NCBI RefSeq assembly: GCF_025699255.1
Contig: NZ_JAILWA010000002.1
Coordinates: 131,985-164,947, forward strand
Length of the DNA: 32,963 nucleotides
Source: Nitrosopumilus sp.
GTDB lineage: Archaea > Thermoproteota > Nitrososphaeria > Nitrososphaerales > Nitrosopumilaceae
Direction of reading: 5' to 3'
Shown in pieces: positions 6,208 through 15,730 of the stretch. Each line of letters starts with the position of its first letter. Within the stretch, counting starts at the first letter, position 1. A model generated the notes under the pieces. That model was not told where the DNA came from, searched no databases, and saw only the letters and a list, made by a program, of their open reading frames with translations. A program made the position numbers and the translations under genes.

Positions 6208-8964
6208 CTACCAGAATTGCCACCATGGTTTTACAACTGGTTTTTGCACAATAGTACACACACCTTCAATTAGTTTTGTTCCAGGACCGCAAATTCCAAA
6301 CTTTTTCTCTACTGGTTTTGGCTCTTCTAGTCCTACTGCTTGGTAAATTGATTCATACTCTGAAAAGTTATCATCAAACCATTTCTTGTATGTAGCTTCA
6401 TTGTTGTATCTGTCAACATAGCTTTGCGGATCTTTTGTCTCATCAACAAATGATGCTGGTATTTGTAATGGCTCTTCTAGTCCTACTGCTTGGTAAATTG
6501 ATTCATACTCTGAAAAGTTATCATCAAACCATTTCTTGTATGTAGCTTCATTGTTGTATCTGTCAACATAGCTTTGCGGATCTTTTGTCTCATCAACAAA
6601 TGATGCAATTCCTAATTCTTCAGGTTCTGTAGTTGGTTCAGGTTCTTCAGGTTCTGTAGTTGGTTTACTGTCAAATACATCATTTACAGTAATACTTAGT
6701 GCTTCACTATCTGAAAGACCATCTTTTTTAGCAACAACATCAAAGGTGTATGTTTTTCCTCCATCAGAACTAGATGGCGTCCATGAAAAGACACCTGTGT
6801 TTGATATGATTTTGGCACCACCAGGAGGACTGTTTGCTAAGCTAAATACCGCGTCTTTGACTGAATTATCTGTTAGTTTGACTGTAAATAACAATAATTT
6901 GCCTTCGTCTATGGTTAATTTTCCTAGTGGGCTGATTTGAATATTGGTTGATTTTGGAGTTGCAGTGAATTCATTTGATGGATCACTTGTTCCTACATCA
7001 TTAATTGCTGAAACTCTGTAAGTGTACATTGAATTTATTGAAAGATTCTTGTGAGAATATGTTCTAGTTGTGCTCTCTGAATCTGCTACAAGCGTTGTAT
7101 ATGAACCGCCATCTTTCTTTACTTCAATTTTGTAGCCTATAATTGGAGAATTTCCATCCTCAACTGGTGCACTCCATGCGAGATTAACCTGAGATGACGA
7201 AACAATAGTTGCTGTTAGTTTGATTGGTGGTGATGGGACTGATACATCAACTGCAGTTGATGTGATTGGATCTTCTGTAGTATCAGTTGAATCATCTCGT
7301 GGTGTTGCCGAAGCTGTTGGTGATTCACTAGTCTGACCAAATCCAATCTCTGCACTTACTGCAAATGTGTATTCTTTGTCCGTTGCTAAACCTGTTACAA
7401 TAAATGATGTTGTTCCAGCATTTGTATTTCCTACAGAGTCATACACTCCTGGAATTACTTCACGTTTAATTTCATATCCACTTATTGGTTGACCAAACGT
7501 TTCAGATGGTGGCAGCCAAGAAAGTTTGATTTGACTTGGAGAAATTGCAGATGCTGTCAATGCTGTGGGTGTTGTTGTGTGTTGGGGTTTTGCTGAAACA
7601 AGAGATGTTGAATCACTAGTACCTACTGAGTTTATTGAATAAACACGATAATAGTAAGTGTCATCAGAATCTAACCCATTGTGGATAAAAGATGTTGATG
7701 TACTTTCAGAGTTTTCTATTGCTGTAATGTAATCTCCTGAACCGATTCTATATTCTATTTTGTAACCTGTAATATCTGGAATGTCACTATCCATCACCGG
7801 TTCTTTCCATGTAATTATAATCGAAGTTGGTGAGACTGGTTTTGCTTTAGGACTTTCAGGCCTGTCTGGAAGTGAAACACCAGATCCTGAATCTAGACTA
7901 AATACTTGAATTCTGTCATTATCTGAATCTGCAACAAACAACAAGTCATTGATTGTATCTAGTGCTATTCCCAATGGGGTATCAAAACTACCATTTGTCG
8001 TTCCTGCAGAGCCAAACTCCTCAACAAAACAAACACCATCTACCACTTCTTCTGTACTTGATGGACAGGTAGTGCCATCAACTATCTCGAAAATTTGAAT
8101 TCTGTTGTTATCCGAATCTGCAACATAAAGCAAATCATTAGAAGAATCATATGCAAGTCCTGCAGGATCATTGAATTCTCCCTCATCTGTTCCAGAGGTT
8201 CCAAATTCTTTTACAAAACAAACACCATCAACTACTTCATCTGTTCCATTAGGACATGTAGTACCTGTAACTAATTCAAAGACTACAATTCTGTCATTGC
8301 CTGAATCTGACACATACAGCATCTGTTCTGAATTATCAATTATCATATATGTTGGATTTTGAAAATCATCATTTCCATCAAATGAATCAAACTCAAACAT
8401 AAAATCACCATCATCATCAAAAACAGATATTGAATCTGTGTCAATGCTAGATACTAGAATTTCATTTGTTGACTCTTGTATTACTATACCTTTGGCAGAA
8501 CCTAGGTATTCATCCACTCCGCTATCTGAAGAACCAAACTTTAATTGAAATTCACCATCATCATCAAAGACTTGAACTCTTTCATTGTTTGAATCTACAA
8601 CAAAAAATTGTCCCAAAGCATCACGAGCTATTGCAAGTGGATTGTTAAACTGTCCATCCCCATCATCGTTTGCTCCATCTGCATTATCATTACAATCATT
8701 AATTGATGCAATATCACAAAATGTTCCATATTCAAAATCAAAATCACCATCGTCATCAAAAACACTAATTCTGTCATTATTGCTATCGACTACATAGATT
8801 TTGTTTGCATTAACATCTAAAATTACATCTGTTGGATCATTGAATTCATCATCATCTGTACCAGTTGTTCCAAACTTGAAGGAAAATTCTGGTTCTGCAT
8901 GTGCCATTTGCAGTGACACAAAGCAAAGTGTGAGTAAGAAACCAAGTAAAATTTTATTTTTCAA
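6208..8964 (-). CDS. Secreted NHL-repeat / fibronectin III surface protein
   Basis: 918 residues, TTG start. A signal peptide (1-23, ending in AHA) precedes about six NHL-type beta-propeller repeats (about 26-375) with the recurring pattern YVxDSxNDRIxVF and acidic DDDGDF loops. Three fibronectin type III domains follow (about 380-680), then an Ig/cadherin-like domain with VFSWTPSSSDGG (about 690-775). Next come two 50-residue repeats containing YVDRYNNEATYKKWFDDN (about 786-881), and a tail CGPGT..EGVC ending in PWWQFW. It is probably an exported adhesion or S-layer-associated protein. It is downstream of a paralogous surface gene, same strand, 96 bp apart. The repeat DNA is identical to that of the paralog. 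It has no CFI box or transmembrane anchor, so how it is held at the surface is unclear. Confidence 0.8.
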   Translation of the reverse strand: MKNKILLGFLLTLCFVSLQMAHAEPEFSFKFGTTGTDDDEFNDPTDVILDVNANKIYVVDSNNDRISVFDDDGDFDFEYGTFCDIASINDCNDNADGANDDGDGQFNNPLAIARDALGQFFVVDSNNERVQVFDDDGEFQLKFGSSDSGVDEYLGSAKGIVIQESTNEILVSSIDTDSISVFDDDGDFMFEFDSFDGNDDFQNPTYMIIDNSEQMLYVSDSGNDRIVVFELVTGTTCPNGTDEVVDGVCFVKEFGTSGTDEGEFNDPAGLAYDSSNDLLYVADSDNNRIQIFEIVDGTTCPSSTEEVVDGVCFVEEFGSAGTTNGSFDTPLGIALDTINDLLFVADSDNDRIQVFSLDSGSGVSLPDRPESPKAKPVSPTSIIITWKEPVMDSDIPDITGYKIEYRIGSGDYITAIENSESTSTSFIHNGLDSDDTYYYRVYSINSVGTSDSTSLVSAKPQHTTTPTALTASAISPSQIKLSWLPPSETFGQPISGYEIKREVIPGVYDSVGNTNAGTTSFIVTGLATDKEYTFAVSAEIGFGQTSESPTASATPRDDSTDTTEDPITSTAVDVSVPSPPIKLTATIVSSSQVNLAWSAPVEDGNSPIIGYKIEVKKDGGSYTTLVADSESTTRTYSHKNLSINSMYTYRVSAINDVGTSDPSNEFTATPKSTNIQISPLGKLTIDEGKLLLFTVKLTDNSVKDAVFSLANSPPGGAKIISNTGVFSWTPSSSDGGKTYTFDVVAKKDGLSDSEALSITVNDVFDSKPTTEPEEPEPTTEPEELGIASFVDETKDPQSYVDRYNNEATYKKWFDDNFSEYESIYQAVGLEEPLQIPASFVDETKDPQSYVDRYNNEATYKKWFDDNFSEYESIYQAVGLEEPKPVEKKFGICGPGTKLIEGVCTIVQKPVVKPWWQFW
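6316..6647 (-). repeat. 332-bp duplicated segment, copy 1 (two 150-bp tandem units)
   Basis: This stretch is identical base for base to 9658-9989 by direct comparison of the two lines of sequence. Inside it two 150-bp units stand head to tail (6321-6470 and 6471-6620); 136 of the 150 positions are a continuous identical run between units. It codes for two 50-residue YVDRYNNEATY repeats in the secreted protein at 6208-8964. Confidence 0.95.
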
Positions 8965-9060
8965 TTCTAATTATCTCCCTAGGTTCAAATTTAATAAATC
9001 AGATAATAAATTTCACTACCCATTTGATCAATTGAGATTTACTATTTCTGAAAGATTTTT

Positions 9061-10692
9061 TTAGATTTTGATGTATTTTCTTGTTTTGAAAATAATTATT
9101 GCTGGTGCAGCTACATACATTCCCAAATTCATCAAAATCACACCAATTCCGTATCCTACCACTTCTGATTCTGATTCAGCATATGACATTACAGATAAAG
9201 TTGATAGCATTGGCGTTATTCCAATCTTTACCATCTCTTTGAAGACTGGGCTTTGTCTTTCCAAATCTGCAATATGTGGAGAGAATGAATAGTATAGTGA
9301 GTTAAATCCGCTCATAAATGAGGCCCCTGATTGGGTGTTCATCAACTGGTTGTCTCTGATTTCACGTAACAGCTGTACTTGTGGTGCCATCTCTGAGCCG
9401 TATGCTGCAGTAGCTATCAGACAACCTCCGCCTTGAGGTTCATCTATAATTACACAGATTCCATCAACGAGATCAGTGCCAGGTCCACATTCACCAAACT
9501 CTTCTTCTACAATTTCTTCCTCGTCTAGTCCTACTGCTTCATAAATTGTAATGTCTGGATATGTTTTATCAAACCACTCTTTGTATGTGGTTTCTTTATT
9601 GTATCTATCAACATAGTATTGAGGATCTAGATTTGGATCAACAAATGGTGCTAATTCTTTTGGCTCTTCTAGTCCTACTGCTTGGTAAATTGATTCATAC
9701 TCTGAAAAGTTATCATCAAACCATTTCTTGTATGTAGCTTCATTGTTGTATCTGTCAACATAGCTTTGCGGATCTTTTGTCTCATCAACAAATGATGCTG
9801 GTATTTGTAATGGCTCTTCTAGTCCTACTGCTTGGTAAATTGATTCATACTCTGAAAAGTTATCATCAAACCATTTCTTGTATGTAGCTTCATTGTTGTA
9901 TCTGTCAACATAGCTTTGCGGATCTTTTGTCTCATCAACAAATGATGCAATTCCTAATTCTTCAGGTTCTGTAGTTGGTTCAGGTTCTTTAGGAGTTTCT
10001 TCAGGTTTTGTTGGTTCTTTTACTGGTTCTTCATATGCTTTTTTCACGGTGATTGAAATTGATTCTTTATCTTCTTGACTTCCATGTGTTACTATAATAT
10101 CAAAATTGTAAATTACATCTTGAATGTTCCCTTGTGATTTTGATGGAGTCCAAACAAATTTTCCGGTACTTGAATCAATTGTAGCTCCTGTCGGTGCATT
10201 CTTTAAACTGAAAACTGGATTTTCAATTGAACTATCTGTAATAGTTGCTGTAAATGTAATTGTTTTTTCTACATCAACAGTTTTGTTCGGAATTGTATTT
10301 AATTGCAAAATTGCATCTGGAACTAGAAATACTCTGTCTCCGTCATATTCTAACTTGATTGTAAAGCCATCTGATTCTTGTTGTGAGTCTACAAACCCTG
10401 TTGCATTGTAAATTCCTGCACTCTTGAAAAAGTTAGATACTGGTCTTGGTATTACTGAAAATTCCCCTTCTGCTGGGGTTGGATCAGATAACATCCCTTC
10501 AAAGTTTCCATTACCATCGCGAATTATGACAAAAATAACCTCTGTGCCGTTTTGTGTTCCGATAAATTTCATGTTTTCCTCATCTGTGTAAAAGCTCTTT
10601 TCAAGAGTCATTGAAGTCACAATAGCATAAGCTGGAGTTAACATTAGGAAAAATAATGAAAATACTGCCAAGATTCCTATTTGCGTTCTCAC
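9061..10692 (-). CDS. Secreted surface protein with CFI-box C-terminus
   Basis: 543 residues from a GTG at 10692; a TTTTAAAA box about 27 bp upstream fits a leaderless start. A signal peptide (1-23, PAYA) is followed by a beta-rich domain (24-130), an Ig/cadherin-like domain with FVWTPSKSQGN (about 135-220), a Pro/Glu linker, and three 50-residue repeats with YVDRYN..TYK.WFD (two identical, one diverged). Then come the CGPGT..DGIC motif and, near residue 423, CLIATAAYGSEMAPQV. This last is the CFI-box type C-terminal domain of archaeal and bacterial surface proteins. A membrane segment (about 512-533) and a basic end (FKTRKYIKI) place the C-terminus in the cell. It is likely a membrane-anchored surface protein; binding partner unknown. 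Confidence 0.8.
   Translation of the reverse strand: MRTQIGILAVFSLFFLMLTPAYAIVTSMTLEKSFYTDEENMKFIGTQNGTEVIFVIIRDGNGNFEGMLSDPTPAEGEFSVIPRPVSNFFKSAGIYNATGFVDSQQESDGFTIKLEYDGDRVFLVPDAILQLNTIPNKTVDVEKTITFTATITDSSIENPVFSLKNAPTGATIDSSTGKFVWTPSKSQGNIQDVIYNFDIIVTHGSQEDKESISITVKKAYEEPVKEPTKPEETPKEPEPTTEPEELGIASFVDETKDPQSYVDRYNNEATYKKWFDDNFSEYESIYQAVGLEEPLQIPASFVDETKDPQSYVDRYNNEATYKKWFDDNFSEYESIYQAVGLEEPKELAPFVDPNLDPQYYVDRYNKETTYKEWFDKTYPDITIYEAVGLDEEEIVEEEFGECGPGTDLVDGICVIIDEPQGGGCLIATAAYGSEMAPQVQLLREIRDNQLMNTQSGASFMSGFNSLYYSFSPHIADLERQSPVFKEMVKIGITPMLSTLSVMSYAESESEVVGYGIGVILMNLGMYVAAPAIIIFKTRKYIKI
9658..9989 (-). repeat. 332-bp duplicated segment, copy 2 (two 150-bp tandem units)
   Basis: Identical to 6316-6647 at a constant offset of 3342 bp; the first mismatch on the right side is at 9990. 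A third unit (about 9521-9657) directly adjoins it but is strongly diverged at the DNA level, while still coding for the same FVDP..DPQYYVDRYNKE pattern. Confidence 0.95.
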
Positions 10693-13342: not shown

Positions 13343-14134
13343 CTAAAAACTGCCTAATGTTTTTTGCTTTTTTTCTTCCCAAATCAATTCTTTCATCCCA
13401 AACTGCATTCTCAAAGAATTTGCAGTTGCAGGACCAAATCCTTCAAAATGATTGTTTGCCATTATCATTGCTAATGGCACATTCTGAATTTCTTTCAATC
13501 TTTTTGCCCAACTAGAAATCAATTCTGATCTGTCATTTAAAATTCTACCAAAATCTGAATCTGGAATGGAACGGTTTCCAATCAATCTAATGTATAGATA
13601 GTCTGATGTGATTGGCATTGGATTCTTTACACCTACAACCTCATTCCATACAAGGCAATGTTTGTTTTGTTTCAGATATGAAACTGCATCTTCAGAAAAC
13701 CATGATTCATGTCTTCCTTCAATAGGATAAACAAAGTCATTAGGTAACATATCAAACAATTCCCCTAATCTTGGTTTTGCTTCTTCAAATGAAAGAGATG
13801 GTGGCAATTGTAAAACAAGTGCTGATACTTTATCATGAATTGGAGTAAGTGATGTTAAAAATGAAAATACTTCTGAATTTACATTCTCCAACCTCTTTTC
13901 ATGTGTTATGATTAATGGAAATTTTGCTGTAAATCTAAAATGCCTTGGAGTATCTGCATTCCAACGTCTAACAATTTCTTGAGCTGGAATTTTATAAAAT
14001 GTAGAATTGATTTCTGTGATCTCAAATAACTGGGAATAATATTTTAGCCATTGGGAACTTTTCAAATTCTTGGGATAAAATGTTCCAGACCATCCTTGAT
14101 AACTCCATCCAGTACATCCAATTTTGATATTCAC
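13343..14134 (-). CDS. DUF72 family protein
   Basis: 263 residues of the DUF72 (YecE-like) TIM-barrel family. The family N-terminus IGCTGWSYQGWSGTFYP is clear, followed by INSTFYKIP, FRFTAKFP, the strand VLQLPPSLSF, the EGRHESWF motif and the C-terminal MANNHFEGFGPATA. The GTG start at 14134 has a TTTAAAAC box centred about 25 bp upstream, so this gene appears to have its own leaderless promoter rather than depending on the RNA element just upstream. Function of the family is unknown; a nuclease or phosphate-related role has been suggested from structure only. Confidence 0.9.
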   Translation of the reverse strand: MNIKIGCTGWSYQGWSGTFYPKNLKSSQWLKYYSQLFEITEINSTFYKIPAQEIVRRWNADTPRHFRFTAKFPLIITHEKRLENVNSEVFSFLTSLTPIHDKVSALVLQLPPSLSFEEAKPRLGELFDMLPNDFVYPIEGRHESWFSEDAVSYLKQNKHCLVWNEVVGVKNPMPITSDYLYIRLIGNRSIPDSDFGRILNDRSELISSWAKRLKEIQNVPLAMIMANNHFEGFGPATANSLRMQFGMKELIWEEKKQKTLGSF

Positions 14135-14166
14135 TGTTTGGTTTGAGTTGACTCTGTTTTAAATTT

Positions 14167-14268
14167 GAAAGCTGACTAATGCGGAATAACCTTTACACAG
14201 CCCTGCCGTATGCTCAGACCGGTAAACAATCACCATGATTCAGACAATAGGAAATTGTGTCAGCTTTC
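14167..14268 (-). ncRNA. Candidate structured RNA A (homologous to RNA C)
   Basis: 102 nt read on the minus strand from G14268. Its ends pair perfectly (GAAAGCTGAC with GTCAGCTTTC; 12 bp if the flanking TT/AA, 14269-14270 and 14165-14166, is counted). Inside are a hairpin ACAAT/ATTGT (14258-14254 with 14248-14244) and a stem TTTAC/GTAAA (14226-14222 with 14196-14192) enclosing the block GCATACGG, then AAGG and CCGCA before the closing strand. A TATA-like TTTTTATT (14298-14291) is centred 26.5 nt before the proposed 5' end. No plausible coding frame. Shares several blocks and this layout with RNA C. Identity unknown. Confidence 0.55.
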
Positions 14269-14290
14269 AATATTCAATATGCATTTATGA

Positions 14291-14306
14291 AATAAAAACA
14301 CGATCC
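14291..14306 (-). promoter_or_regulatory. Promoter of candidate RNA A
   Basis: On the minus strand GGATC (14306-14302) stands four bases before TTTTTATT (14298-14291). The TATA box centre lies 26.5 nt upstream of the base that begins the closing stem of RNA A. The same GGATC-TATA arrangement precedes RNA C. Confidence 0.5.
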
Positions 14307-14372
14307 TTTATTCCACATCGTGCTAAATCATCAAAAACAAAAATAATTGGAAAATTAAAAAACAAAATAGGA

Positions 14373-14505
14373 ACGAGGTGTTTTTGGAAAACTAGGCTTT
14401 TACCACTCTAGGATCCTTTGACCCTTTTTCCAGTCTTCCTTTTTACTATCTGCCTGCTTCCTCAAAGTTTCTCCTCTGAATTTCAGCGGGTATGATAGAC
14501 CTCGT
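14373..14505 (-). ncRNA. Candidate structured RNA B
   Basis: 133 nt on the minus strand from A14505. The two ends pair as ACGAGGT/ACCTCGT (14505-14499 with 14379-14373). Directly inside the 5' arm, CTATC pairs with GATAG about 50 nt later and encloses a small CTGA/TCAG hairpin. A TATA box TTTAAATT (14535-14528) is centred 26.5 nt before the 5' end. The 3' stem is followed by a T-rich tract (TATTTTGTTTTTTAATTTT), a good archaeal terminator. There is no coding frame of note. Part of the sequence (TCAGAGG...GGAAGCAGGCAGAT) vaguely recalls SRP RNA helix 8, but the apical stem is not there. Confidence 0.55.
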
Positions 14506-14527
14506 CATTTACAGTAATGCAAAATGA

Positions 14528-14535
14528 AATTTAAA
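14528..14535 (-). promoter_or_regulatory. TATA box of candidate RNA B
   Basis: TTTAAATT on the minus strand, centred 26.5 nt upstream of the first base of the closing stem of RNA B; AGATCC lies immediately before it. Confidence 0.5.
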
Positions 14536-14605
14536 GGATCTGTAAATATTTCTTTAAATTCATTAAGATTTAAAACTAAAACTATACAAATTTACACAAT
14601 ATTGA

Positions 14606-14621
14606 GGATCTACTTTATTAT
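14606..14621 (+). promoter_or_regulatory. Promoter of candidate RNA C
   Basis: GGATC (14606-14610), three bases, then TTTATTAT (14614-14621). The box centre is 25.5 nt before G14643, the first base of the closing stem of RNA C. Confidence 0.5.
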
Positions 14622-14642
14622 TTAATTTCACAGATTCATAAT

Positions 14643-14743
14643 GAAGACAGAAAGTATCCGTACGCAATAACGTATTGTCGTGTTACATGTCAATGCATAC
14701 CGTGCTTGGTTTGTAAAGGATCCCGCAGAAAATTTCTGTCTTC
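14643..14743 (+). ncRNA. Candidate structured RNA C (homologous to RNA A)
   Basis: 101 nt on the plus strand. A perfect 11-bp stem joins the ends: GAAGACAGAAA (14643-14653) with TTTCTGTCTTC (14733-14743). Inside are a hairpin CAATA/TATTG (14665-14669 with 14673-14677, extendable by ACG/CGT across one bulge) and a stem TTACA/TGTAA (14683-14687 with 14712-14716) enclosing GCATACCG (14695-14702), then AAGG and CCCGCA. A T-rich tract follows from 14744. It shares TATTGTC, GCATAC, TGTAAAGG and CCGCA, in the same order, with RNA A. No tRNA, 5S or C/D-box features were found. Confidence 0.6.
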
Positions 14744-14750
14744 TAATTTG

Positions 14751-15407
14751 TTATTTTGTTAATTTCTTTGCTTTTGCAAACACAGCAGACCACTGATCCC
14801 AGGTTAATCTTCCTGTTTGAGTATTTTGTTTTGATGGATGGTATGATGTTAATATTTGAAATCCGTCATAAGTAAACAATTTGTTATGTCCAAACTTTTC
14901 TGATTTCACATTGTACAACTTACATGTTGCATCATATGCAATTTTTCCAAGACACAAAATCACTGTAATGTTTTTTAGGATTTCTTTTTCTTGTTCTAGA
15001 TATCCAAAACAAGCATTCATCTCTTCTTTAGTCGGTTTGTTTTGAGGAGGTGCACATCTTACTGCTGCAGTGATGTATGCATTGTATAATATCAAACCAT
15101 CATCTGCAGTTTGACTGGTTGGAATTGATGCAAAACCATGTTTGTACATTGCTTTTGCTAACCAATCTCCTGATGAATCCCCTGTAAACATTCTTCCTGT
15201 TCTGTTTCCTCCATGAGCTGCTGGTGCTAGTCCAACAATTAGTAATTTGGCTTTAATATCTCCAAAACCTGATAATGGTTTACCATAGTATTTTTCTTCC
15301 TTGAATCGTCTTACTTTGTTTTTTGCAACATCTCTAATGTACACTGATAGTCTTGGACATTTTTTGCATCTTGCAATCTTTTTGTTTAGTGTTGTAATTG
15401 ATTTCAT
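14751..15407 (-). CDS. Uracil-DNA glycosylase, family 5 (UDGb-like)
   Basis: 218 residues from the ATG at 15407, two bases after the stop of the upstream gene. A longer frame to 15467 would overlap that gene. It removes uracil (and often other deaminated bases) from DNA. Four cysteines fit the [4Fe-4S] cluster of family 4/5 enzymes: C14 and C17 (CKKC), then C118 and C133, 15 apart. The uracil-binding motif GLAPAAHGGNRTGRMFTGD (about 59-77) has the Ala-rich form without the catalytic Asp/Glu of other families, which points to family 5. The C-terminal motif SYHPSKQNTQTGR supplies the His. It is probably translated together with the two genes upstream. Confidence 0.88.
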   Translation of the reverse strand: MKSITTLNKKIARCKKCPRLSVYIRDVAKNKVRRFKEEKYYGKPLSGFGDIKAKLLIVGLAPAAHGGNRTGRMFTGDSSGDWLAKAMYKHGFASIPTSQTADDGLILYNAYITAAVRCAPPQNKPTKEEMNACFGYLEQEKEILKNITVILCLGKIAYDATCKLYNVKSEKFGHNKLFTYDGFQILTSYHPSKQNTQTGRLTWDQWSAVFAKAKKLTK

Positions 15408-15409
15408 AT

Positions 15410-15730
15410 TCAAATTAGTTTTTTCAAAACATTCAATGCAACACTGTGTTTTTCTGGAGTAATCCACAGTCTCCTGTAAATTTTGTAATCTGTTTCTAAA
15501 ACTATAGCTTTTGATTTTGCAGGCCTTGTTGCATCAAAATGGAACCAGTCTCTAAAGTTATTTGATCCTGATATTCTTAATTTGCCTGAGAATAGTCCCA
15601 TCTTCTTTTCAGAAACTTTTTTGATATGATATAACATTACCTCTTTTTTACCCCATGGAAGCATCCATGATTTGAAAACCAATCTATCTGGATAAATTGA
15701 AAGATGTTTGTCTGTGTATAGAGTTACCAT
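15410..15730 (-). CDS. Conserved-looking protein, possible PH-like fold
   Basis: 106 residues from the ATG at 15730. A GTGAG five to six bases before it resembles a Shine-Dalgarno, which favours this start over the GTG at 15739. The protein is beta-rich: alternating strands (LYTDKHLSIYPDRLVFKSW, EVMLYHIKKV, LFSGKLRISG, AIVLETDYKIYRRLWI) and a final helix (HSVALNVLKKL) give the outline of a bacterial PH-domain-like protein. The LPWGKKEVMLYHIKKV segment is typical of those. It lies 12 bp after the nitroreductase stop region and two bases before the glycosylase, so it is probably an operon member. Function unknown. Confidence 0.6.
   Translation of the reverse strand: MVTLYTDKHLSIYPDRLVFKSWMLPWGKKEVMLYHIKKVSEKKMGLFSGKLRISGSNNFRDWFHFDATRPAKSKAIVLETDYKIYRRLWITPEKHSVALNVLKKLI

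Follow-up and report, generated by a model that had tools for sequence, protein, structure and literature searches.

In this work, we describe what is very probably a previously undescribed family of trans-acting structured RNAs of the Nitrosopumilaceae. Two of its members, A and C, lie in the stretch of DNA that we analysed (the window, 32,963 nucleotides), which belongs to a Nitrosopumilus-like genome of 1.65 Mb in 20 contigs. A 616-nt gap separates a DUF72 gene from a uracil-DNA glycosylase (UDG) gene, and A and C, paralogues within a single structured RNA family, both lie in it. The family, its fold, its gene borders and its position in trans, independent of the neighbouring genes, are strongly supported, with sequence data as the sole basis. 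The fuller explanation, in which this new trans-acting family is a stable regulatory RNA of the RNP type, is one that we consider likely. The scores below are from covariance models built from A only (R1), from C only (R2) or from a combined set of 50 sequences with 31 pairs (R3).

13343-14134, minus strand: DUF72 gene (name read from the translation)
14167-14268, minus strand: RNA A (type 1), 102 nt, with closing stem P1, hairpin P2 and long hairpin P3; 115.5 bits with R1, 92.8 bits with R3
14643-14743, plus strand: RNA C (type 3), 101 nt, with P1, P2 and P3 like those of A; 89.6 bits with R2, 59.9 bits with R3
14751-15467, minus strand: uracil-DNA glycosylase (UDG) gene (name read from the translation)

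The signal of A and C at these coordinates is far above chance. Both elements fold better than their dinucleotide shuffles (z of -3.6 for A with its flanks and -3.0 for C), and the borders that a sequence-only reading of the window had proposed, 102 and 101 nt apart, are the exact ends of the covariance-model matches. The same reading had listed blocks that A and C have in common in a fixed order; the consensus sequences and the recovery of each type by the other's model establish that these are homologous. A 16-nt block, ACAATATCCTATTGTC, is common to the A-family and the C-family consensus and is followed in both by TAC, GCATAC, GTAAAGG and CCGC in that order. The A-only model finds C members with E-values down to 2.5e-5, and the C-only model finds A members, including the A of the window genome itself (E = 0.009). 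A plain pairwise MAFFT alignment of A versus C placed the 3' halves out of register, a fault that was fixed by the family alignments.

The earlier suggestion of two homologous elements is right about homology, but the family consists of three types rather than two copies. The third (type 2) was exposed by the A-only model; it is not found in the window genome and has at most five copies per genome elsewhere. Type 3 (C) is a single clade with 100/100 support and type 1 (A) is present in all the other genera sampled. Type 1 is probably ancestral, although this is an inference. By BLAST, A was found in 22 of 60 genomes of the genus and C in 12, counts that include the window genome and a few weak matches; A homologues occur in 21 other genomes of the genus, two of them with weak matches only. 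Several complete genomes of this same genus have no match even under permissive filters, and such a patchy presence indicates that this is not a universal housekeeping RNA. More widely, the combined model is positive in 97/250 Nitrosopumilaceae genomes and 6/22 genera, with up to seven copies per genome. In an order-wide sample of 300 genomes all 63 positives are Nitrosopumilaceae, with none outside. The named carriers include Nitrosopumilus MAGs, Nitrosarchaeum MAGs and Nitrosarchaeum sp. BD3.

Some side observations concern individual assemblies and another part of the window. The flanks of the type 2 RNA are the same at loci L110 and L111, on contigs C5 and C35 of genome G040, and one of the copies has partly unresolved bases; these are probably duplicated assembly ends. 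In one MAG, type 1 RNAs lie at the extreme ends of two contigs (L163 on SYJQ01000057.1 and L174 on SYJQ01000063.1), a position which implies that the assembly broke at the type 1 element, and this could reflect a near-identical second copy. Locus L176 (JAICOU010000007.1) has a Nitrosarchaeum-like type 1 RNA together with the RNA B that is described below; its MAG is titled Nitrososphaeraceae, probably a misassignment. Elsewhere in the window (6208-10692), two adjacent minus-strand proteins of 918 and 543 aa have near-identical tandem blocks (SFVDETKDPQSYVDRYNNEATYKKWFDDNFSEYESIYQAVGLEEP) in common.

The family fold has a P1 of 9-11 bp, a P2 of 5-6 bp with CC in the loop, and a P3 with seven freely covarying upper pairs. 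Its parts in the window are the following.

14259-14268, minus strand: A, 5' strand of P1 (GAAAGCUGAC), partner of 14167-14176
14244-14258, minus strand: A, P2 hairpin (ACAAUUUCCUAUUGU), conserved CC in the loop
14183-14234, minus strand: A, long hairpin P3, with a UUUAC/GUAAA helix, an apical GC-AUACG-GC and a lower UGAUU/GGUUA helix
14167-14176, minus strand: A, 3' strand of P1 (GUCAGCUUUC)
14643-14653, plus strand: C, 5' strand of P1, partner of 14733-14743
14665-14678, plus strand: C, P2 hairpin (CAAUAACGUAUUGU)
14679-14719, plus strand: C, P3 hairpin, with a UUAC/GUAA helix and a GC-AUAC-GC apical loop
14733-14743, plus strand: C, 3' strand of P1

Much of this had been noticed in the sequence-only reading. 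The sequence bears out the perfect end-to-end closing stems, of 10 bp in A and 11 bp in C, as well as the CAAU/AUUG hairpin. The second stem exists as the UUAC/GUAA helix but had been drawn too short: it continues into seven upper pairs and a GC-HUAC-GC hairpin at the tip, and there is also a lower helix, which is UGAUU/GGUUA in A and CAUC/GAUG in most others. The claim that pairing is kept while bases change is true family-wide, but A orthologues show hardly any variation in the closing stem. The covariation of this stem is visible only on comparing types 1, 2 and 3; family-wide, P1 has changes on both sides at 8 of 9 counted pairs.

Compensatory change was one of our criteria for a free-standing structured non-coding RNA, and it is met. 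In an alignment of 71 distinct members (A9), both sides have changed in 27 of the 31 base pairs and 94.4% of cells pair, against 34-45% after sliding the partners; none of 500 shuffles scores as high. This alignment was fitted to the model and was enlarged by 20 loci of other genera. A MAFFT alignment (A8), which is not structure-fitted but does contain sequences used to derive the pairing, has both-side changes in 23/31 pairs and 94.1% of cells pairing, compared with 33-45% after sliding and 81% for the shuffles. The slide control corrects for relatedness, whereas the shuffle control does not. The covariance-model test that had been put forward for A and C has been run and was passed, with homologues in six genera and strong compensatory change. 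Outside the helices, the best-kept unpaired letters form short loop patches (the apical U and the internal-loop A at 100%, and also the internal-loop G), and the J2/3 linker varies beside a constant frame in the family alignment. A loop-loop contact between P2 and the AAAGGAU strand was considered; the variation is too small to judge it.

Does the family belong to a known class? In an Rfam 15 cmscan of the window, only two tRNAs reach the gathering score, and over 14100-14800 the best E-value is 1.7, far below gathering. This agrees with the previous statement that neither element fits tRNA, 5S, RNase P or SRP patterns. Other candidates were tried and rejected. Box C/D and H/ACA guide RNAs are small stable archaeal RNAs, as A and C are inferred to be. 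A C box (RUGAUGA) near the 5' end and a D box (CUGA) near the 3' end are each seen in 0/71 members, and ACA directly 3' of the stem in 1/71 (the pseudouridylation pocket was not modelled). A and C share with Y RNAs and YrlA, the Ro-bound RNAs, a length of about 100 nt, a single stem that joins the two ends, and internal hairpins. However, the Ro/TROVE protein PF05731 was found in 0/60 genomes of the genus, with a positive control genome, and there is no Rfam match to this class.

The archaeal intergenic sRNAs of haloarchaea, methanogens and others are similar in being free-standing, intergenic, structured and about 100 nt long, with their own TATA promoter and a U-tract end. They differ in that no described family matches in Rfam, and the A/C family is widely conserved, multi-copy and, in the genomes searched, confined to the Nitrosopumilaceae. 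Tan1 of the marine group II Euryarchaeota, an abundant structured plankton RNA of unknown function (PMC5069720), is likewise a structured archaeal RNA, but it is 229 nt long and from another phylum (no sequence comparison was made). Our literature search found no description of the A/C family. The N. limnia genome paper mentions a 'conserved noncoding RNA', 93% identical to N. maritimus and unspecified in the main text (PMC3043068). The proposal that A and C represent a new thaumarchaeal small RNA family with a conserved fold is supported, without Rfam match, coding potential or repeat signature.

Putative promoter elements precede both RNAs.

14292-14298, minus strand: A, TATA-like box TTTTTAT, -30 to -24 from P1 (from the whole-family positional profile)
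14302-14305, minus strand: A, GATC motif, upstream of the TATA-like box
14607-14610, plus strand: C, GATC motif
14614-14620, plus strand: C, TATA-like box TTTATTA, -29 to -23 from P1

An archaeal TATA box is expected about 26-30 nt before the transcription start. Among the 70 members with full flanks, T makes up at least 87% at -29 to -27, TTTTAT starts at -31 to -28 in 45, GATC starts at -38 to -36 in 48 (and at -35/-34 in two more), and the 3' side of P1 is T-rich at +4 to +9. U-tracts act as archaeal terminators (PMC8716108), and the T-rich box and tail lie at the distances at which an archaeal TATA box and U-tract termination would be expected. A further criterion, a promoter and a terminator of the gene's own at a fixed distance, is therefore met, as far as can be judged without transcripts. 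The GATC-TTTTTAT pattern shows no genome-wide excess over its reversed control (13 vs 35), and is thus not a general promoter signature of the window genome.

The surroundings of the RNAs are not constant. Only 2/71 members overlap an ORF of at least 80 codons by more than 20 nt, the neighbouring genes are diverse, and the downstream gene is on the same strand in 37 members and on the opposite strand in 33, so that the constant orientation 5' of a gene by which a cis-regulatory leader would be recognized is not met. Variable neighbours and a downstream gene on either strand point to a free-standing, trans-acting RNA and not to a leader or a repeat.

How might such an RNA work? Each gene would have a TATA-type promoter of its own, with transcription beginning at P1 or a few bases from it (there are no transcript data). 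The RNA would fold as a three-way junction of the closing stem P1, the short hairpin P2 and the long hairpin P3, and end at the U-rich stretch directly 3' of P1, giving a stable RNA of ~100-110 nt with both ends paired; we infer that these paired ends confer the stability. The conserved unpaired bases of P3 (the apical UAC and the internal-loop AAG) and those of the P2 loop may together form a surface for a common protein, and the upper stem of P3 and the linkers, which vary, may diversify among paralogues; both roles are inferred. Whether protein binding, itself an inference, is the main mode could go either way. We favour it over antisense action because the conserved unpaired bases are short patches inside the fold and the linkers vary, an argument that is suggestive, not decisive. 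Conserved loop patches would equally suit a ligand-binding or antisense RNA, and no partner protein was found; the neighbours vary.

An antisense regulatory sRNA would use its loops or the J2/3 linker as seeds on mRNAs in trans, with different targets for different paralogues. The presence of up to seven paralogues per genome and the variability of that linker are compatible with this, and pairing of the P2 loop UAUCCU to AGGA-like start regions is conceivable. However, conservation is lowest in the longest unpaired stretch and no target has been identified (no genome-wide target test was made), and we regard this explanation as unlikely without dismissing it.

Two further explanations dispense with a free-standing RNA gene, and neither holds up well. 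If the elements were cis-acting leaders (riboswitches or similar) of the next gene, e.g. of DUF72 after A, this would suit the location of A, which in the window lies 33 nt ahead of the DUF72 start, and the compact three-way junction, a shape typical of aptamers. That said, the next gene is on the opposite strand in 33/70, what follows C is the 3' end of UDG, and A is retained in a locus where DUF72 is missing (L021), which makes a leader highly improbable. We give very little credence to a MITE-like mobile element with the closing stem as terminal inverted repeats. Such an element could account for a length of ~100 bp, inverted ends, several copies and scattered positions, but not readily for compensatory changes in P3 as well as P1, a promoter at fixed spacing outside the repeats, a low copy number, or the fact that A in another genus (L142) has kept the UDG and archease neighbourhood that it has in the window; nor do the type 1 and type 3 patterns have an exact match in IMG/VR. 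A viral link was also rejected: a type 2 16-mer matched three viral contigs, in all of which the RNA is absent by model.

The trans-acting A/C family has a second RNA in its neighbourhood, B, which lies between A and C and has a predicted promoter of its own.

14368-14510, minus strand: RNA B, an unrelated second conserved RNA with closing stem ACGAGG/CCUCGU, divergent partner of C (BLAST, HMM and fold)
14511-14642, no strand: 132-nt divergent control region from the B start to the C start, with conserved blocks at both promoters and midway

BLAST and HMM searches place B homologues next to C in the window and next to 14 further type 3 members; the interval between the B and C starts is 127-136 nt in 15/15 loci examined. 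In L118 the pair occurs with the same spacing at a different genomic place, among different genes; type 3 members L122 and L123 have no B match. Nitrosarchaeum-type genomes have a shorter B (core CGAAAAAGGGUGGAAGCACUCAAAAUUCG), divergent from a type 1 RNA and about 0.5-0.7 kb upstream of it, and B homologues are found in several Nitrosopumilaceae genera. B has no Rfam match. A B pattern occurs in 50/250 genomes, 44 of which are RNA-positive (Fisher p about 1e-15), and within the genus 28 of 29 B-pattern genomes are RNA-positive (p about 1e-5). Shared ancestry is not taken into account in these p-values, and divergent copies, including the window's own B, escape the pattern. It is possible, though we suggest it only tentatively and with more doubt than conviction, that the A/C RNA and B form a two-RNA module of divergent genes with a near-constant control region, which move and are lost together and act jointly without a dedicated adjacent protein gene.

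In summary, the RNA family to which A and C belong is new, its general kind is known, its function is unknown and its two-RNA neighbourhood is notable. Few ammonia oxidizers in the sea are as abundant as Nitrosopumilus and its relatives, and our literature search found almost nothing on their regulatory RNAs. The clear covariation, defined gene borders, named carriers and linked second RNA provide a directly testable entry point.
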